From Panorpa germanica (Eukaryota > Arthropoda > Insecta > Mecoptera > Panorpidae): a stretch of 64,000 bases of DNA. Shown here piece by piece: positions 1,265 through 18,000 of the stretch (positions are counted from its first letter, which is position 1; each line of letters opens with the position of its first letter). The DNA is taken from the NCBI GenBank assembly GCA_963678705.1, contig OY783216.1, forward strand, positions 620,001 through 684,000, given 5' to 3'. Below the pieces are notes generated by a model. It ran no database searches. It was not told where the DNA came from and was given only the letters and a program-made list of their open reading frames with translations. Made by a program: the position numbers and the translations under genes.

Positions 1265-4200
1265 TTACAACCTGCTATCAAGTAACATTTGGTTCACTTG
1301 CAATATTAGTGAAACATTTAATTGGATAAGGTTCAAAATAATATCATCAGATCCTTCATTCGGAGTACTCCTATAAAAAAACAAATATATATATAATGCA
1401 TATTGTTTGTTTGAAATCAGATTTCTTGTAAAAAAAATATCTAATCTTTATGCTATAAAAAATACCTGTTTTTAGACATTGATGTAATTTGATCTTTTAT
1501 TTTATCAAACACAGCAGATCTTTCTTGCATTTCCGAATTTATAGTTTCTTTCAACTGTGATGCGCCTAAAAATAAATTGTATTGAAATTATTATTACTTT
1601 GTCTATTCAATTATTTCAAACGAAAGTAAAGTTTGCAGGTCTGAAACTAGAACTACCGAACAATTCAATGAAACTTACCATTTAAATATTCTTCAAATAT
1701 TTTCTCTGCAGTTGTTGGGGTGGAGGATGTATCTTCCGAGGATGTATTTTTTTCTCTTGACTTTTCAAATTTAGGCTTTGAAATATTAAGATTAACACGA
1801 CTTGGTGAACATTTTGCATTTTCATGTTCGTCGGAATCATTTGAAGATTCAGAAGTACAAGATAAGGAGCCTAGTAAAGAAGACGGAATAGGAGACAAAT
1901 AAGAATCGTTACAGTCATACCATAATGTAGTTTTATTTCCAGGGTCTGGCGCTATCTGTTCACTGCTGTTTTCATTGGCATCCGAATCCGAATCTGATGA
2001 TATGGACATATCGGCATTGTATCGAGGTCTCGTTATCAACTTTCTCTTTTTGGGTGTTACTAAGCGTTCAGTCTTCTGCTTAAATAATTTCCGTTTTGTG
2101 GGTGTTTTCACTTGGAACTCGGATAGATCATCAGAACTATCTGAATCTTCTGAGACATCCACTGCATCATCTCTTGAGTTTTCTGTTAGGTAACTGTCTA
2201 CATCTATGCAATGATCTTTTAAATCACTTGTAAATGATGATTTCAAACTCTCTAATATAGGTGTTGGGATGTTTAATTTCGTTCCAGATTCCGTTTTATT
2301 TAATTTTCGTTTCTTTTGTGCGTTTATTTCACGTTCCAATAATCTGTCAGAAATATTTGAATATTGCGAAAACGCTTTACGGTTCTTACCAGTGATCAAC
2401 TGCTCTAAAACATTTACACCCGATAAATTATTTGTTATAGTTTCCCTAATATTTTGTTTATCTGTTTTCTGTGTAAACGATTGAAAACTGTTATTTAATG
2501 TTTCAGAGTTTTCATCAAATAGTTTGCGCTTTTTGTTAGTTTTTATTTCATAATCCGAATCTGATGTATCATAAGGAGATAAATTTAATAGCTCCCACAG
2601 CTTGTACTCTTCGTTTATATCAATACAGTCGTCTTCTGAATTCGTTATTGGTGTTGTTTTTTTTAATGACTTAGTGGAAGATTTATTAGTTCTTATTTTA
2701 GATTTTTTGGTACTAACTTTGCATTTTGCTGGTGTTTCTTCTTCTGACGTAACAGAATTGTTTAATAACACATTATTTTCCTCTACAGTACATTTCTCTA
2801 GACTTAGTGACAAAATACTATTTATCTCTTTATCTATGTTGCTACAATTATGTTTCAAATTGGATAAATCATTCGTCATAGAAGCTCTATTACTTTTCAG
2901 TGCTTTATTTTTTAATATCTTCTCTTTGATACATGTTTCTTTTATTGGTGTTTTTTCTTCGGACTTAGAGGAATGGTTAACATTATCTGAATTTTGTAAT
3001 GTGTTAATATTTTCTACATCGGTAACTTGCTCTGTCTCCTCATGTAGATCATTATTGTTATTTTTTTCTGAATTTGTACTGTGAATCTTTGAAACTTGGC
3101 TCACCCATTGCATTACGTAATTATCTTCGGGCAAATCAATAGTTTTAACATGTTTTATTTTAAAAGATTCCCAATCAGGATTAACTCTCATTTCACTACT
3201 GTCAATAGATTCAGAACAACTTGTTGACGAAATTGAAATATTTGTTAGTTCAATATGTTCCGCATCTTTCTGAGTTAGACTTTCAGAACTCTTAGATGCA
3301 GCTTTTTGGCTTTCTCCGGGTTCTTCTTCATTAGTTTTTAGGGAGGTCTCTTTATCTTGATTAGAGCATTTCTTTCTTTCTTGCAATACATAATCTACTT
3401 TGGTCTCTCTCGTAGTATTTTGTTTATCCAACTCTGTTACATTTATATCTGATCTCAACTTATTTACTTGTTCCAAGCTTTCATTATGTTTTGATCCTTT
3501 ATAAATGTTACCTTCTTCCGATTTATTTATTGAAATATCTGTTGTACTAAATGTGATATCACCAATAACTTCTCGCACATATTGTTTTACATCTGATAAG
3601 CTGGATCTTGAACTACTTGATTCAACATCATTTGACACAAGTTCTATTTGTAATTCGCCCTGATGATCAACTTTTTCAACTGCTTTTTTAACAATTGGTT
3701 TATATCGTATTTTTTGTTTTTTCTTTTCTGCTTCTTTCTTTTTATCTATGTTTTTCTTAGGAGGTATATATTCCTGATCGGACGCCGGCTCCACTTCACT
3801 ATTGCATTCATGTTCTTCAGCTATATTATTATCTATTATATCAACTTTTAATTTTTGATCAACATCCTTGACTGCTTTTTCACAAGCTGGTTTATGTCGC
3901 AATTTTTCTCTTTTCTTCTCTGCTATTTGCATCTTATCTACGTTTTTCTTAGGAGATACATATTCTTGTTCAGACGCCGATTCTACATCAGAATTATAAA
4001 TGCTTTCTTTATTTTTATTATCATTTTTCATGTCAAGATTTAATTCTTCAATTACTTCAGGTACTTCATTATCAATTAATTCGGTGTGTACATTTACTTC
4101 CACTTCATCTTCTAAAACTCGAATATTGCTATTTTCCATAAGAATGTCAGTTTGTTTTATTTCTTCACGCAAAAGATCAGGCTCTTCAACCTCGTTGTTA

Positions 4201-7200
4201 TTATTAAGATTTTTCACAAACGTTTTAGTTTCTTTAGTCGTATATTTATTTTCACTTAACTCTGAATCTAATTCACAATAATTAATTCTTTTAGTTTTAC
4301 GTTTTGTACGAACTTGAGTTTTATTATTATCGCTTTTTGGTTTCACTTGGGTTTCTGGCTTCTCTATTTTTCTTGTTATTCTCTTGGATTGTCTGGTTAT
4401 TTTTTGTTTCTGGTTTCTTTGTCTTGTCTGCTGAAAATCCGATTCTGAATCGGCATCAGAGTAAACCGATTTGTTAGTTGCTTTGAGACTGTCATTAGCA
4501 ATTTTAGAATTTTTATAAGAAAACGATACATTATCATTGGTTCCATTATATTTGGGTACGATATAATCTTTGTTAGATGATTTAACACTTGTACTGTCTT
4601 CAGAAAATGAGTTCTTTTTAGCGCGTCCTTTCCTTTTTCTTTTGATAACAGGAGATGGTATGTATTGAACTAATCCAGGATGGGTAGTTTTAAATGAAAG
4701 ATTTGTAAAATCAGAAAAATTACTTCTTGTAGATTCATCTTTTTCGAAGGAGTCATCCATTCCCGGTGTGTATAATTTACGCTGTGGACGTATTCTAGAA
4801 CTCACTGAAGTAGTATTGCTAATGTTATTCAATAGAGGTGTATTTAGTTTATTTTCTACTACTTTTTCGACAACGGCATTTATATTCTCAGTTATTTTCT
4901 TATGAAAGCTTACATTTTCAGTAGAAACATCATTTTCAATTGGTTTGATTAAAGTGGACAATTTTTCAACTAATTCTTTTGAAGCTTTTTTTATTCCGCT
5001 TGCATCATTTGTTTTAGTTGTACTTAAATTATCACCAGATTTTTTATTCGATGTTATTTCACTGGAAATAATTTTATCAACGACCGTCGACTTACTTGTA
5101 GCAAGCTCTGAAACATTTGCATTCTCTTCTCCCGTAGTAGTGTCTTTCTTGTGTTTTATGGAAATTCCATTCAAAACATTTTTTTTTACTTTTTCTAATT
5201 TTTTGTTAACTTTCTCAGTTTTATTTTTTTTGTTACCAAAGAGATTTCCTTTTTTCGTTTTATTTAACTTACAAGTAGGATTTTCCTTTCTTTTTAATTT
5301 ATCATTCATATTTTTATTTGTATCTGCTTTCACGATGTCATATAGATCTTTTGTTCCCCTTAAATTATTTGTAGCTTTTTCTTGTAGACTAAAATTATTT
5401 TCTTCTTTCGCAGTATCATTTTTACGACTTTTACTTTTGAAAAACTTGTGTGTAATCTCTTTTGTTGAAGTATTCAGCGATTTGTCTTGGAGAGATAAAT
5501 CCTGATTTATGGTTGGATCTTTAGATTTGAAGACATTAGCAAAACTCATATCATTTTCTTTAGAATTACCGGACAGATTATCATAGTCTGAATGAATTTG
5601 GGAAACATCATATATATCCACTGTTTTCATATTTTCAAATATATTGGATTTCTCTGAATTCTTCTCAGTGAATTTAACATTTGGAGATGGTGTGGGAAAC
5701 AAGTTTTCTTTTCTAATTGTATGTGGTCCTACCTTTTTTATAAAAATACGTTTAAGACCCATTTCTTCACTGTCAGATTCTTCAGACATCAAGTTAATGA
5801 CTAAATCTTTATTTACATTTCCTTCTTGATTTTCGTTGTTTTTATCTATCGGAAAACAGGGTAAAGCTTTTATTGGAGATTTCATACACTTATGACTACA
5901 ATTTTGTATAACTATATCTTCTGAAGACTCGTCTAAAGTATCACTCAATGTTAATTTCTTCTCCGAAACTTCAGTAACATCCGTCTTGTCTTGTAGTTTT
6001 AAATCAACAATTACACTAGACGGCTCTGACGTTTCGTTGTTAGATACCAAAAGTTGTTTCTCAATTTCCGCTTGCTTTTGGTTATTTATAATTGCATCAT
6101 TGTTAAATGAGGTTATGTTATTAACAGTGTTATTTTTAAAATATTTGGACACACATAATTCTTTACTGTCTTGTATTATTTCCTTATTTTGTTGAACAAT
6201 TATTTTCTTTTTAACAAGTAAGACTGTAGATGCCGTACTATCGACTGATTTATTTAAACTACTATCTTTTGTACTATTATCGTGATCTGTCTTACTATTT
6301 TCCATATCAGTACTAATATTAAAGGAAACTGACAAGTCTTCTTTTGAAGATTCGTTAGCATGAGACATTTTTTCCTCAATTTTTTCCTTATTAATATGTT
6401 CAATCTCTTTTGACAATAATGCTTCTTGGGTGTGATCTACAGTTCTGTGCGACGTACTCATATTTTGGTCTTCAATAATATTTTCTATAATTTCCGTATT
6501 TATGTCAATGTGCTTATCGTATATAGCGGTTGGTTTATTATTATCAATGTTTAGTTTGCTTACATTATTTGCAATATGTGAAGCAGGTGATGTAATTGTG
6601 TTTTCGTCACAATTGACAATATTAGCGTCTTTCACTATCACCTCTGTCTGATTCTCGTCCTCACTACTATCTTGCCTTTCTAACTGTTTAGTTATGTCGG
6701 CCACTATCTGCGTTAATTCCATATCAGTCTCAGACTCTGGAGTTTCAGATACATATACTTCTCTTTGTAAGATACTTGATTTCTGCATAAAACGACGAAA
6801 CGTCGAAGTATTTATATTTTCAGGTGTTTTACTTATCTTTTGCTTGGAATTTGTAGTAATTGCAGATGTCGCTGAGTTCTTAATTAATACACTATTTTTA
6901 TTTCTGGAAACTTTTACAAACTTAAGTGGTTCTTTAACAATATTTTCCTCGCTAGATTCAGAAACATTTATTGTTGAAGCATCTGTAACTGTTGATGTAG
7001 TTGATCGTCTATTTTTTGGTTTCTTATTATCTTCTACCAAATTTTTATTATTAACTTTAGGAAGATTAGGAGAATTTGCCTCAACACAAGCAGTATTGCT
7101 TGCATTCTCCCCATTTAGAACTTTAAGCTGCTTGTTTATAACATTCGTGTTAGTTTCTTTATTATTTCTTTGGCTAACATAATTCAAGTGTTGTTGATCA

Positions 7201-10200
7201 GAACTTAAGACGGTCTCTTCACTTAAAATGTCTGAACCCTCAGAAGAAGACATTATCGGTGATTGTGATAGTTTTTTTTGAAGTTGTTTTACAAGGTCTT
7301 GAAAATGTATTTTTTCAAGAGCATGTTTTTGTATCACATCGTTGTCGCCATTATGAAAATTCAACTGCTTGGATAAACTTACTTTTCGTGAATTTCTTAT
7401 CATATGAGCTGCTTTAGAGAATTTTAGCTTTGCAGGCCTTTTCCTAATTCTATAATTTGCGAATGATTTCGAAATCTTTCTGTTTGTAGTGTCTTCCGAT
7501 GATGAATCATCAATTTTATTATCTAGATGTACGGCGGTAATTATATTTTCATTGTTGTCGTCAGAGCTATATATAACTTCATTAGAGTCACTTATTTTAT
7601 TATATTGTACGTTATTCTGTTTTTCTACCATTGGACTAGGTAAAATTTCTTTGTTACATTGTTTATTCATTTTCACTCTCTGTGTACCACTGGAATCGGA
7701 CTCTAATACTTGTGTATCGCCTATAATAGAGTTGCTTGACGAAGTTACGTATTCATCTTGAAGCAGACATTCATCACCATCAGAGTCTGAATTAACAAGA
7801 CTGATATTTCCAATATTTGTTGCTATGTCAAGGAGATCAAATCCAGGTACGCTATCATCACTAGCTTCATCAATGTCGTTACCATAATTTGATATGATGT
7901 GGTTTAATTCACCCATCTCAAAAACTGGATCTGTTATTATATGTGTTTCCTCTGTTTTGTGTTCTTGTTTCTGAGAGTCTGTTTCTTCAGCAATACAACT
8001 CAACGGAGGACTTCTTATATAACGGGCTACCTTATCAACTTTGTATTCATAGAGCTTATAAGCTTGCAGTTTCTTTTTTAGATTCTGAAAACAAAATTAA
8101 TTATTTTTTATTTATTTTTTTAACTGTTTTATCTAAATATTCTGGAAAATTAAATCTTACCTTAGTTGGATCCGATGAATCAGCTGAACTGCATGATGAA
8201 GCATGTACTGGAGATACAAGATTTTTACCGTCCCATTTACTGATGCTACCTAAATACACATCGTTATATTTATTAATATGTATGTATTCAATAATAATTG
8301 TACAGTATTTGATAATATGAAATAAAATATCAATACATAGTTCAAGATACCACAATCAAAATATAAAAACAAAATAATGCAATGTCATAGCTCTCTTTTT
8401 TTTTGCAAAATAAATACATATTATATTATTAGATGAAATTTCAGGAGTGAATCCCTTACACCAGCGGTTCTCAAAGTGTGGGGCGCGACCCCCAAGTGGG
8501 ACGCAATGAAGGCTCAGGGGGACCCAAAGTTTAGTAGAAAAATTAATTAAATTTACTTACAAAATAATAAAGCAAACTTTTTATTTTTAAAATTACAACA
8601 AGTGTATAATTTTTAGTCAACGCCGTAAGAGTGCCGAACATTTTATTTTTTTTAGTTTATCTGCAGTAAAATAATCTGCGTATACACCGACATGTTTTCA
8701 GTAAAGCGCGGGAGATGACTCTCGTGGTAGCAAGCACCTAGCATGCCTGTTTGTTGTACAAACACATCCTTCACACTGAAGCTCTTTTTATTATCCCTTT
8801 GAGTTACAAATAACAATTATGTATTATAGTTGCTAAAATAATTAAATAAATTGTAATTGTTTGTATAGAATTTGTTCTTTGATTACGATTAAACCTATTG
8901 CCCCATTGGAGTATGCATAGAATATGCAAAACTTAACTAAATAAAAATTGACTGCAAAATGTCTAATGCGACTGTCATATAATATATAGTACGCTTACAT
9001 GTAGGGGCCCCGGCTTACAGCTGGATTATACATGGGGCTCGAAATAAAAAGTTTAAGAACCGCTGCCTTACACTATTCTATTCCGCATTGTTAATGAGAT
9101 AGCCTACTATGTGAAGTAAACAGTGTGACAAAAATTACGAAAAAACCAACTAAACACAAAACATGAATATTACCTTTCACTACTAATAATATTTCATCTA
9201 AAAAGATCTTAATAAAGATTATTCGTTATTCGTTAATTTGGGCTCCTTAAGATTCTATAGTCATTAAAATTTACTTAAAAACTTTTATGATTATTCTAAC
9301 ATGAAAAATGTAGATTTATTTTTCAAATAGTAAGTAAAAAAATGTTGTATTTAAGATAACATTGTTTACGTAGCAGGCCATATTTATAACATATTTGTGG
9401 AAGGAATTAATAACTAATTAAATCTAAAGAAGTTTACCTTTAAATGGCTTAAAGGAATGCCACTGTGCAGCATTAGAGTCAAGCAAAACTACTGCTTGCT
9501 GTGGCTTTACTTTCAAATACTGTAAATCGAATTATTCTATTTAAATACATATTCTTATAAATGCAAATAATCCAATTAGAAGTAATGAATTTTACCTGAA
9601 ATGAGTTTCCAAATATTTTATGTAAAACATCTTCTTCAATTATCTTTTGAGCCACACAAGTATTTGAAGAAGTTACAGCTAATTTGCAGTTCCAGTTATC
9701 AAATTTATTAAATGGAGGCAAATCTTTACACGATGGTTTAAACAAGAAATCAATTGTCGTTAAATTCACTTCACTGTAATTATATTAAATATTCAATTAA
9801 ATTTTAATAATTTCAGAGTTATTTAAGGCGTTCTACTTACTGCCAGAGAATGACCTGCAACACCATCTCTTCTGTTATGATGATTAATTCCCGTTCATTT
9901 TTCTCCAAAATGTTAAAGTAGCTGAGGCTAATGCTGAGGGTACCAATGTTACAATCAAACCAAAAAAATTGATGCGATGATTGCTGTAATAATTAAATAT
10001 TTAGTAAATAAATGTCACCAAACTACAAACGTATCTTATTTGTTTTTACTCTTACCTTAGGCAAGGTTAATTTTGTGTTACCCATGTAAACTGATTCGCA
10101 CTCTAAGCTTACGATATTATTTCGTAAAGTTGTATTTAACAAATTTAGGAAACTTCTGCAACTCTGGAATTGTAAAATTCGCTATTAGTGTATAAATATT

Positions 10201-11121
10201 AATAATGCTGTATAAATATAATATAATATAAAAACTTACAAGATCGAAGTTTTGGAACGGCACATTAACAAAAAAAATTCTAATTTCCTCCATAGACGGA
10301 AACCATTTAATTGCTAAGCGATTTATTGCTTCGTTGTTTAAAATTCCAACATAATGAAAAACGGTGTCTAAAATTGCAACTTGGGCGTTGTAATCACCAC
10401 AAGAGCATATAACTTCGCCAAGCTTATAGCTGCAACAAATAATTGTAAAATACAAATATGTTAAAATATAATTTAATTTTTTTTCTAAAATACCTACAAT
10501 TTATGTTCAAATTTATAAAAAGTTTCCTGCCGTAAATTATGTACTGATGGAAAATTTAAGCAACCGTTCCAATGGCTCAGATTATTTTTAACATTTGTCA
10601 TTGGCAAATGCACAGTAGTTAGTAAATCTAATACTGCAGGTGTAAGTTCAGATACAACAAGCGGTTGCATGGATTTCACATTTTCGCAAGTTTCCTGTAA
10701 CATTTTTACGCAAATTAAAAGCAGAACTTTGATTAAACTTGTAAACTATTATACATACCTTTATAATATTAAACCATTCCGAAAAGAAATAATCAAACTC
10801 TCCTTTTGCTTTACTATGTACTAATTTTGCCAGCCATTTTAGAATGAATTTAAATAAATCTATTACACGACTCTCGTCAAAAACTATAAAACTCAAATTA
10901 TTGGTGACATGAAGGTCAAGAATGCATTTGTAGGAAGCATATGCAATTTTTAGGCCTACATTCATAGAATCATTGTTTGTGTTGTTGACAATATTCTTCA
11001 AGTAGTTATATATACCAAGTATATTTGAAGTTGACTTCCACTGCGTTAAATATTCTTCTGAAGGAATTTGATAGAATTCCAAAATATTGGAAATATGTTT
11101 GAAGTATGTTTCAATTAACAT
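1265..11121 (-). CDS. SYCP2: SYCP2-like synaptonemal complex protein, 11 exons, ~2,653 aa
   Basis: Exons (minus): 11121-10759, 10694-10498, 10429-10240, 10163-10056, 9983-9841, 9773-9596, 9519-9438, 8249-8161, 8084-1679, 1565-1466, 1370-1265. All junctions are GT..AG, the phases agree, and an in-frame stop precedes the ATG. In SYCP2, an armadillo-like domain and an SLD (Spt16-like, PH-type) domain head a long disordered tail with a C-terminal coiled coil that binds SYCP3; the protein builds the meiotic chromosome axis. Here residues ~1-285 look armadillo-like (KLGEVICSCGDYNAQVAILD, CRSFLNLLN). Residues ~287-430 match the SLD (FFWFDCNIGTLSISL, DVLHKIFGNSF, VVLLDSNAAQWHSF). Residues 451-2585 come from one 6,406-bp exon rich in S, E, K and N, with KRKL-type nuclear signals near the end. 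The last two exons are helix-prone, fitting a short coiled coil. Vertebrate SYCP2 is about 1,500 aa, so the tail is unusually long. Identity rests on N-terminal motifs recognised by eye; SYCP2L is the alternative. Confidence 0.82.
3670..4005 (-). repeat. In-frame tandem repeat, 192 bp (64 aa), in the SYCP2-like tail
   Basis: Two head-to-tail units with a period of 192 bp: the same DNA motif begins at 3973 and at 3781. In protein, each unit starts with an acidic serine stretch (DVESASEQEYVSPKKN, then EVEPASDQEYIPPKKN). A lysine-rich stretch follows (EKLRHKPACEKAV, then QKIRYKPIVKKAV). The copies have diverged but stayed in frame, so the tail grew partly by internal duplication. Confidence 0.8.
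8462..9065. mobile_element. Non-autonomous hAT element (604 bp) in SYCP2-like intron
   Basis: The ends are inverted: CAGCGGTTCTCAAAG on the left, and a right end whose complement reads CAGCGGTTCTTAAAC. It is flanked by a perfect 8-bp direct duplication CCTTACAC (8454-8461 and 9066-9073), the hAT signature. There is no transposase. A GC-rich patch near the left end (gggcgcgaccccc) is typical of this kind of hAT end. It lies in the intron between exons 9438-9519 and 8161-8249. Confidence 0.88.
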
Positions 11122-11974: not shown

Positions 11975-14900
11975 TTAAGATGTTGTTGTCTTCGGTGCCA
12001 TACAATTTCCATCTGGATATCTTTGTTGAAATGAAGATATGAGCTCAGGATCTACAAGTCTAACGCCGTCTACTTGATTACCCAAAGTTATCCTAAAAAT
12101 AAAAAATAGATAAAAGAAACAGCATACATGTATATTTCAATAATGATCAATAACCATTTGAACTTATTTAGAATATTTTTTAGCAATACTAACCAATTAG
12201 GTTGGACATTATGAGGTCTTCCAAACAATTCAATTTTTCTTGTTCCAGGAGATAATCGCTCTATCATTCCATAAATTTCATCCGGTTTGTGACTTGTTGC
12301 TCGCACTTCTGCCACAATGACATCACAGTCAAGACCTCGATTTAAATTTGGAGGATTCCCTTTCATTCCTACCTAAAATAAAATATATTATAGCATCGAA
12401 TAATTAAAGATCTTAAACTACTTTAATATTATTACCAAGCAATGCTCTTTCCCATGATTAAGCCAGTGTCCTGTTCTTCCAGTTCTAATAATTCTTTGTA
12501 ATTGATTTGTTTTTACCCAAATAATTTCATCAACTCTTTCATATCCCCATAAGTTTAAACACTCTCGACCAAGCTCCATTGCCCTAAAATAAATAAATAT
12601 TTAACAAAATCATTCGTTTAAGAATGAAGCATAAGATAGGATTCATTGTTACCGTCCAGTAACCCAAAGAAAAATTAATCCATCGTCTTGTAGCGCAGGA
12701 ACACCAAGCTGTCTCATTTCATCGTCGGACATAGTTCCATATGGAAGCTCCATGTGAATATCCCATGGTGGATCAGCCATAACAACAGCAAACTTGCCTG
12801 AGACAACAAACATGAGAGTTACTAAACATTTCTTTTAAGTAAAATTGAAAGGATGATCAAAAATCTTAAATTTAAGAAAACTTATATACCGAGAACGGTC
12901 ATGTCCAGATATCGCAAATCGCACTGTACCCATTGTGGTGGATATAATATTGTTGAGTCTTGCATTCTACTGAGACTTGGAAGTCGACTTCCTTCTGGAT
13001 CCTTAGTTCCCGAATTAACAAAACTATCAACTTCATAATGAACATATCTACAAAGAAAGAGATATTTTACATGAAATTTATGTAAATACTACATAAATGT
13101 GTTAGGTCTGTCTCAGTATGGCACCGTAATTCAACGAATTTCCGAACCCTGTAAATGTAATGAGACCTCTCACGAATGCGGGCGGTACTTACCTCTCACA
13201 TTAAAACCGAATATCAGCGAATTTTAACCAAACGTTACCACCACCACAACGCTAACATATCCGAACCTCAGACTGGAGGGGATACCTAAGAATGCGCGTT
13301 GTATCGCTTCAATCCGCTTCGAATGGGATCTATCGGCGCCATCGCTTTGTGAATGAATATGTTCAACTTGCTTCAGTTTTAACAAACTAAATTAAAATTC
13401 ACACCAACCAAAACTCAGATATATAATAAATGCTAAAGTCCCTTTAATGCCAATGGTGTATCGATAAAAATTAAAGTAAAAGTTTGTTCTCATGCAACTC
13501 AAAACAACTCTAATACACCCCCTATAGTACACAAGTTGCTTGAAGTATTGTCATATCGGTACAGGGTATGTATGTATTGTGACACGCACAGTCGATTTGC
13601 TTTGAGAATAGTAGCCACTCATCCAACCCGCCGATTTACGTGCGAATTCGCCGTCGCTTAAATACGGTGTCATACTGCGACAGCCCTTACGTGGAATGAT
13701 ACTTACTTGCAAGTATCCATATGAAAGCACGTGTTTAGGAATGAACAATCTCCTAAACTTTCATCCGTGTGCTGCTGAATTATTTTCCTAAAATGAACTT
13801 TATTGCATTCATGTATAGCATCCGTACCGTCCTTAGTTTTTGTTACATTTGCATTCGCACGGTTGCATTCAAGACGAGTTGCGTGCGGACAAAACTCCAT
13901 TACCTGTGCTCCTAAAATGTAAAAGAATTTAACAATTTGTCTAATCTTAGAAGTTACATACTGACATATTTTAATACCTCCTTGCGATTTAAATTTTTCT
14001 GCTAAACATTTTTCTTTCGCTGTTGGTTTAGATAACAATTCTAAAATTTCTTCGCCAACTATTTTACTTTGCTTTTCTCGTATTGTAGGCATGGCTAGTA
14101 AAGACTAAAGTAAACAATTTTATTTCAATTGTGTAAGGGATTATACTAAGGTACAAATATCAATAGGACAAACCATGATATCCTTTTTGCGTTCATCTTT
14201 TTCGGTTGTTAATTTTGATAGTTTTCCCAGAGTTTCTATTTCTTCTGTGTCACCTACAATTAAAAAAATAAAGTTGATTTACAGACTGTACAGTTCAACA
14301 TTGTGATCCTTGGATTCTTATTTGTTAATTCAATATTTCAATCCAGTACCTTTTCTTTTCCTGTTCAGATCTACATCAATTTCAGGTTCCAGAGTCGCTA
14401 CAGGGGTTGGTACTTGCATTTCAGCTGCCAGGGCTGTCAATTTAGAATGGTCAACAGTTGTAACTTCCAGCATAACACCACCATCAGTTGAAGTTTCTCT
14501 GACACTAGGAAATGGCATTACAATAGATAATTCAAATAAGTTATTTTCAAAAGATAACAAAGAAAGCGGGTCGCTTTTACCTTATCAATAACTGAGTAGC
14601 TAATTTATTTAATAAGCTATTTAATACTGGAGGAATTTCAGTCCTTTTTAACTCACGAGCTACAATTCCTTCCAGCTTGGAGCTTGTTATAGGTAATGGT
14701 AAAGTAATTTCAGCTAGACATTGTACTAAGGACCTTTCAAAACTCTGTTCAGATAAATCTAAAATAAATCACTCAAGAAATATGTTTTTTATATAAATTA
14801 TAGATTAACATATTAAATATTACCGCTATCATTTTTGGTATTTGTGGGACTTGGAACAGCTTTATCAATATCTTGTATATTTTGGGAAACTTCATTTTTT

Positions 14901-15088: not shown

Positions 15089-18000
15089 TAGGCATGTCGA
15101 TTTAAAATCGATTAATCGAAAAATCGATTATTTAGAGTAATATAATCGATTTTTCAGATCGATTTTGAACCCTACATCGATTCAATGAATCGATTCATAA
15201 ACCTCCCGAATCGGACCGATCCATTCAAAGAACTAGCGATATTATATTCTCAATTGGCTGCGGTATTTAGTTTTTTTAATTTTTTGCTGTTGTCGGACGC
15301 AAAAGCAATTGGTAGTACTTATTATCTCTGGTAGTACTTGGTCAATAATTTGAACGCATCATAGAGTAAATATTATAATAGAGTATATATTATCTTTGAA
15401 GTAAATATTTATGAACGCTTCCGAAGGTGGCGTTACTTGCGTTAAAAAAACATTTTATTTTTCTATCCGGCTGTAAAACCTAACCTATCTATTCTTGTGA
15501 GTGAGTTTATTTATCAAAAATATACTGTGTATAAATATTATTTTTACTGTAAATATTTATAGTAATGAAATAAATAATATCGTGTTCATATAGCATTTAT
15601 TTTAATTTGAAAAATAGTAAGTGATTAGATTGATTGTAATCGATTTATCGAGAAATGTGCGTTTGCGTTGCAGTTTGCATTTTTGTTAAAGTATTGTTAT
15701 TCTTTTTAGCCTAAAATGTCAACTAAAAGTGATACATGGTATCACTTTGTAAAAAAGGGATCAAGTGGCGTATGCAAGTATTGTAATACCGAAGTTAAAA
15801 CATGCGGGAATACAACAAACTTACGCAACCATTTACTACGAAGACATCCATCTATTAAGTCCGTAAGTCAACGAAAACGAAAACTGGTGGTGGCAAATGA
15901 TAATATTGGTGTTGGTGACGACAAAAAAAAAACTGAAGTGTGTACCCGTACCTTTTCCTTACAATACAACATATGCCTCTTTTATTAATGCATGCTTGTT
16001 TGAAAATTGTATATTCTTGCATTTTTTATCCTTTTATTGTATTTATTTTGTAATTTGAAATAATAATAGAATACAAAAACATAATCCTTTTCAGACAAAT
16101 GACGATATTGCTACTACGTCGACATCAAAGGAAAAATTTGACATAAATGATGCTTTGAGTTTGACCAGTTCAAAAGAGTACTATGATTCTGACTTAGAAA
16201 GTATAGCTTCATCATCAGTATCACTGAAAAAATCAAAACTTAATCAGCTAACTATGGATTCATGTGTTGATAATATTAAAGCATTTAGTGGTGAGAATTT
16301 TTGTTATCTACGTAATGAATTACTTACTTTGTTGATTATGGTCATGGTATATTTATGAGCGGTGATAATGTATAGCTTTGATTTTTTTTTTCAGTAAACG
16401 GAAAGAAGTATGGACAACTAAATAATGCTATCATGTTAATGATTTGCAAGGATACGTTGCCATTAAATACAGTTGAAAAAGAAGGTTTCACATACTTAAT
16501 GAAAACAGCAGTGCCTTTATATAAGCTTCCTTCACGGCAGACAATTACACAAATGATAGATGACAAATATGATGTTCTTTCTTTGCAATTTAGAGAAAAG
16601 CTCTTAGAAGTAGAGTCAATATGTTTAACTACGGATATATGGACAGATACACATAATACTAGAAGCTACATGGGTTTAACTGGACATTTTATACATGGCA
16701 GTGAACTGATTAGTATAAATTTTGGTGTGTCCCATTTAACTGAGCCCCATAATTCTGATTATTTATGTCAAATATTAATAAGAATGACTGAAAAATGGGG
16801 TATAACCCCAGAAAAAGTTGCAGCAGTTGTTACTGATAATGGTGCGAATATCGTCAAGGCCGTAACAATTGCATTTGGCAAACAAAAACACTTATGGTGT
16901 TTCGCCCACACTTTGAATTTAGTAGCTCAAAAACCTTTTGAAGAAAAAGCTGGTATTGAAAGTGCCAAACAGTTACTAAATACTGTAAAGGATATAACTA
17001 GATACTGTAAACAAAATGTAAATGTAGCTGATGCTCTTCGTAAAGCGCAAAATGATATAGCAGTACCACTCAAATTGATTCAGTCAGTTTGCACACGATG
17101 TAATTCAATTTACTATCAGCTAGTTCGGTTTGTAAAGTTATCTGAGCTACTTGCCCCAATATTACTCAATTACCCGAAAGCTCCACCTATGTTAACAGCC
17201 AGTCAACTAGATGGTATTAAAGATGTTATAAATATTTTAAAACCTATGGAAGCTGTGACGAAAGAAGTATCCGTAGAGAAATTTGTAACGTCAAGCAAAA
17301 TTATACCAATAGTTTCCTGTCTTTTGAAAACATACAGTACAATGAAGACGGAAACAGATGTCGGTGCTGCAACCAAAAATTTAATATTGGAAGAATTAAA
17401 AAGGAGATTTGGTACAGTGGAACATGTACATGTGTTAGCTATCACCACACTACTGGATCCAAGATTCAAGAAAATTCATTTTTCTGACAGAATAGCATGC
17501 TCCAGAGCTATTGATAAAATTAATAGTATGATTGTAGCTTCAAAAAAACAATTGGAGAATAAATTAAGTAATGAAGATTCAGAGAATAATTTGGAATGCC
17601 AGCTGAAGGAAGCAGAAGAATCTAACATTTGGGAATTCCATAACATATTAGTAAAAAATCAGCTACAATTATTTCAAGCAGAAACTGAAGGACAAGGTTT
17701 ACAAGACGAATTGAAACATTATTTAACACAGCCTGTCGTCGACTTTAAAACGACGGCTCCTATGACATATTGGTATCACCAAAGAAATTCGTTGTACAGC
17801 TCAATAACGCCGATTGCCAACAAATACTTTTGCATAGTTGGAACATCTGTTCCATGTGAAAGGCTTTTTTCTGTTGCGGGAAATATTGCTACTGACGAAA
17901 GGAGTCGTTTAGATCCTGAGCGATTAGATAAGTTAATTTTTTTAAAGTCACTCGACTTAAAATACTGGGAAATATAATTTCTTGTTAAATTTGTATTTAA

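Follow-up and report, generated by a model that had tools for sequence, protein, structure and literature searches.

Structure of the gene

The window, by which the whole analysed stretch of 64,000 nucleotides is meant (Panorpa germanica, assembly GCA_963678705.1, contig OY783216.1, positions 620,001 to 684,000), possesses a putative SYCP2 gene on its minus strand, running from 11121 to 1265. A base-by-base reconstruction of the model joined 11 exons into one frame of 2,653 residues. All ten introns show GT-AG ends and closing phases, and no internal stop is present. The introns measure 64-113 bp with the exception of intron 7, which has 1,188 bp. The stop codon is TAA (1267-1265), and upstream the start codon is preceded by an in-frame stop. 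The first-pass annotation had described 11 exons with closing phases, a product of about 2,653 aa and a 6.4-kb exon of 2,135 codons, and every detail checked in the rebuild was right.

All exons are on the minus strand. Exon 1 (10759..11121) codes for residues 1-121 from the ATG at 11121 and presumably contains the beginning of an armadillo-like region, followed by exon 2 (10498..10694, residues 122-187). Exon 3 (10240..10429, residues 187-250) presumably carries the last armadillo repeats, and the match to the SYCP2 structure 5iwz begins in it. The SLD (Spt16M-like, PH-like) domain begins in exon 4 (10056..10163, residues 251-286) and continues in exon 5 (9841..9983, residues 287-334). The rest of it is presumed to lie in exon 6 (9596..9773, residues 334-393), past the aligned part of 5iwz, with its end in exon 7 (9438..9519, residues 394-421). 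Exon 8 (8161..8249, residues 421-450) forms a linker. The tail exon, exon 9 (1679..8084, residues 451-2586), is charged with few hydrophobics and has 6,406 nt, which is 2,135 codons plus one base. Exon 10 (1466..1565, residues 2586-2619) holds, together with the end of exon 9, a candidate C-terminal coiled coil, and exon 11 (1265..1370) supplies residues 2619-2653 and the stop codon.

The open stretch containing exon 9 extends over 2,143 codons. Among 100 simulated sequences of 12 kb each, with the first-order base statistics of the real DNA, no open run exceeded a maximum of 117 codons, and the median of the 100 maxima was 83. The exon 9 frame is therefore not due to chance, as had been claimed from the letters by calling the gene "not a patchwork of chance frames", and chance frames were rejected as a candidate. 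A multicopy element was rejected as well because only one genomic place was found. With residues 1-450 as query against the genome (E<=1), all eight matches were exons of the SYCP2 gene itself, and exon 9 matched itself only, in one place.

The locus could also be read as two neighbours, with exons 1-8 forming a short ARM-SLD gene and the 6.4-kb exon belonging to an unrelated one, since the tail has no recognisable domain. Against this, intron 8 is only 76 bp long, is in phase with sites AAG|GTAAGA and TTTTCAG, and leaves little space for a gene end and a promoter. Moreover, silkworm SYCP2 is described as a single chain of 1,800 aa that carries the domain, the tail and a C-terminal coiled coil (PMC10151401). 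Two separate genes were counted as rejected on the in-phase 76-bp intron between exons 8 and 9, and this arrangement is considered quite improbable.

Similarity of the N-terminal part to SYCP2

Residues 1-450 were searched against 177,635 distinct PDB sequences. The sole match at E<=10 was the SYCP2 chain 5iwz_A (E = 4.3e-13), which is mouse SYCP2 according to the description in PMC8131943, and residues 189-328 were aligned with residues 205-342 of the chain. In Pfam the spliced protein matched a single family, SYCP2_SLD, at residues 268-332 (E = 8.5e-05; 23.4 bits, below the 26.5-bit cut-off). This profile result for the N-terminal part thus stays under the curated score. Homology to SYCP2 covers residues 189-332, and the SLD domain was recognised from the 5iwz alignment up to residue 328 and the sub-cut-off SYCP2_SLD match. 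The four motifs quoted in the first-pass annotation, KLGEVICSCGDYNAQVAILD, CRSFLNLLN, FFWFDCNIG and VVLLDSNAAQWHSF, all occur in the spliced translation. Its proposal of armadillo-like and SLD hallmarks in the first 450 codons holds for the SLD domain, while an armadillo part before residue 189 was unrecognised by sequence. Residues 1-189 alone gave no PDB match. Pfam SYCP2_ARLD was not reported in the spliced protein at E<=10, a setting in which HMMER filters lose most weak matches. A genome scan with SYCP2_ARLD at E<=0.001 gave 0 matches, and 14 control genomes likewise gave none. NCBIfam (E<=1) returned 0 families for either protein piece searched, exon 9 included. Residues 1-188 would be expected to adopt the armadillo-like fold on the model of the known proteins.

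SYCP2L has the ARM-SLD part in common with SYCP2, so that the two cannot be separated by domain similarity alone, and a paralogue of SYCP2L type instead of SYCP2 proper has to be weighed. The genome searches yielded one copy, and the long tail and the SYCP3 gene of the same genome seem to fit SYCP2, making the paralogue very improbable, slightly more so than the division into two genes. Least credible of all is a different ARM/PH protein with no more than a likeness to SYCP2. The generic nature of ARM and PH-like folds speaks for it, as does a match confined to the middle of the domain; against it, nothing else among the PDB sequences reached E<=10 and the lone Pfam match is SYCP2-specific. 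With a probability of about 93%, the gene encodes the SYCP2 orthologue of the host insect, an axis-core protein of meiotic chromosomes. The homology to SYCP2 proposed in the first-pass annotation is borne out by both searches, and the SYCP3 gene and HORMAD1-like exon of this genome count in its favour.

Composition of the tail and candidate motifs

Residues 451-2550 contain 26-34% hydrophobic and 25-43% charged residues per block of 150, compared with 43-49% and 16-21%, respectively, in residues 1-450. The tail is thus charged, as had been noted from the letters, and judged from composition only, a long disordered middle is present. Exon 9 gave no Pfam family at E<=0.01. It was found to contain a tandem internal duplication at 1783-1937 (E = 2e-17, offset about 65 residues), in which residues 1847-1937 align with 1783-1871 at 41% identity over 91 columns. 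A weaker repeat pair is situated near 2265-2313 and 2419-2458 (E = 2e-04). The protein also possesses four KKRK-type basic clusters, which we take to look like nuclear localisation signals.

The segment KVARYIRSPPL (8001..8033, minus strand; residues 468-478) resembles KVSRCIRKKKL, the presumed C-terminus of the HOP1/HORMAD protein of the same genome. The latter was taken from an open frame that follows the HORMA exons on contig C8 downstream and closes with a stop. When residues 421-520 were shuffled 2000 times, 113 of the shuffles reached the score of KVARYIRSPPL. In the protein this score ties for third place, and three other places score equal or higher. The best score anywhere in the protein was reached by 38 of 100 whole-protein shuffles. 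KVARYIRSPPL lies at the expected place after the SLD domain and is regarded as a no more than suggestive candidate for the HORMA closure motif. The SYCP2 closure motif is described as lying directly after the ordered domain and resembling HORMAD C-termini (PMC6349405). For mouse, the account in PMC13396342 states that deletion of the closure motif abolishes HORMAD2 binding to axes while axis assembly persists.

At the C-terminus, a simple in-house heptad score, rather than a published predictor, gave 0.58 in the window 2587-2621, which ties with 2175 as the best of the protein. The maxima of 300 shuffled tails had a median of 0.54 and a 95% value of 0.68, so the score lies within the shuffled range and is not significant. 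The C-terminus compared with the PDB gave no SYCP2 or SYCP3 match, only weak matches to other proteins. The C-terminal coiled coil is a candidate, and its pairing would follow the known proteins.

Genes for possible partners

A six-frame scan of the genome with the Cor1 family gave three weak matches, none above the 32.1-bit cut-off. Two of them (25.8 and 19.5 bits) adjoin on contig C3 (C3:5453503-5453875), while the third (18.4 bits), on C6, shows no such neighbour pair. When the C3 exons were joined (three exons, splice sites seen), the product scored 63.1 bits with Cor1 and matched SYCP3 in the PDB (4cpc, E = 5.4e-12; 6dd8, E = 3.1e-08), with a query one residue short. By this similarity, the genome that carries SYCP2 clearly has SYCP3 as well. 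The HORMA scan of the genome gave seven matches, of which four were above the cut-off, on C8, C19 and C21. The C8 exon matched HORMAD1 in the PDB (E = 1.1e-10), with MAD2 as the runner-up (0.026), and by this similarity it is HORMAD1-like. Two HORMA exons were also observed on one strand of C21 (C21:28060096-28065066), 4.8 kb apart, possibly a tandem pair or a single two-HORMA gene. The scan with Pfam SCP-1 (SYCP1) gave 0 matches in the genome and none in the control genomes either, and is uninformative because no control genome matched.

Comparison with known SYCP2 proteins and proposed function

Insect SYCP2 is already in print and the Panorpa gene is no first. SYCP2/SYCP3-type genes are reported in Lepidoptera and Diptera, and the relevant passage of the same source reports none in Drosophilidae (PMC8131943), in agreement with the remark of the first-pass annotation that no obvious SYCP2 is described in the fly model. 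As such genes were not found in that family, the fly is a misleading guide to the chromosome axis of insects. The listing in a 2014 search gives no SYCP2 likeness for Mandibulata (PMC4132317). The silkworm protein (XP_037874109.1, 1,800 aa) is described as uniting ARM, PH, closure motif and C-terminal coiled coil, and an antibody to it stains the synaptonemal complex (PMC10151401). In two-hybrid assays of that study it contacts HOP1, and SYCP3 contacts its residues 190-1800 but not the full-length protein (PMC10151401). It is reported in spermatocytes of both sperm types (PMC12360503).

The Panorpa protein shares with Bombyx mori SYCP2 the N-terminal SYCP2 domain, here recognised from residue 189, and a long tail, and in both species SYCP3 and HOP1 genes occur in the same genome. 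For the closure motif and the C-terminal coiled coil of the silkworm protein, Panorpa offers candidates. Set side by side by published description, the Panorpa protein is 853 aa longer. The 5iwz domain of mouse SYCP2 is homologous to Panorpa residues 189-328 in nearly the same register. The Panorpa protein exceeds mouse SYCP2 (1,500 aa; PMC10151401) by about 1,150 aa and has nearly the whole tail in one exon. The first-pass annotation was right, measured against mouse, that it far exceeds vertebrate SYCP2 in length, though the silkworm protein already has 1,800 aa, and length, relative to these two proteins, is the new aspect. With budding-yeast Red1 and plant ASY3 axis cores it shares, by description only, the general plan (PMC6349405), in which a disordered middle goes together with a closure motif and a C-terminal coiled coil, the last two being candidates in Panorpa. 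Red1 is described as self-assembling (PMC6349405), whereas the Panorpa genome has a SYCP3 partner gene.

If the protein works as SYCP2 does in mammals and the silkworm, its N-terminal armadillo-like and SLD (PH-like) module would tether the protein to chromatin or cohesin, and the short motif just past the module would capture the HORMA domain of HOP1/HORMAD. The long flexible tail would separate this module from the short C-terminal coiled coil, which may build the filament of the axial/lateral element jointly with SYCP3. Such working would be that of known SYCP2, several of its steps being carried over from these proteins, and expression in the germline would be expected.

Within the literature searched, the Panorpa gene may add an insect order to the known holders of SYCP2. 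That another insect has SYCP2 and SYCP3 together with a HORMAD agrees with the published view of a loss confined to drosophilids. It is tentatively proposed, and regarded as unlikely in full, that an order without SYCP2 in this literature keeps a vertebrate-type axis (SYCP2, SYCP3, HORMAD) in which the SYCP2 tail has expanded, in part via internal duplication, to about 2,200 residues. If this is true, the length of the tail may determine how far chromatin is spaced from the axis filament. The sequences could be used for antibodies and for testing tail length against axis structure.

Neighbouring elements and mitochondrial sequences

Intron 7 contains a 604-bp element (8462-9065) with the ends CAGCGGTTCTCAA...AACCGCTG, flanked on both sides by CCTTACAC (8454-8461 and 9066-9073). 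With 8461-9066 as query, 547 candidate places were returned from the genome, of which 40 were scored. From its end sequences we take the element to be like a hAT-type MITE. On the plus strand of the window, a 531-codon open frame at 16382-17977 contains a hAT dimerisation domain (Pfam PF05699, 53.4 bits), by which it is classified as a hAT-type transposase. Upstream of SYCP2 on the same strand, an exon of a neighbouring gene (12649-12834, minus strand) possesses a MT-A70 domain (52.6 bits), and further pieces of this gene seem to span about 12088 to 13088. The neighbour is presumably METTL3.

Among 20 COX1 matches in the genome, 19 were outside the mitochondrial contig C249, and 18 of these 19 possess in-frame TGA codons. 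They are probably nuclear copies of mitochondrial DNA. The mitochondrial contig (16,386 bases) showed the tRNA orders I-Q-M and W-C-Y in ARAGORN (28 calls, some spurious), by which the host is probably neither a ditrysian moth nor a lacewing. The trnS1 anticodon was read by eye as GCT, where the ARAGORN reading differs; GCT would argue against a polyphagan beetle. The mitochondrial tRNA order is M-I-Q in ditrysian Lepidoptera and C-W in Neuroptera.
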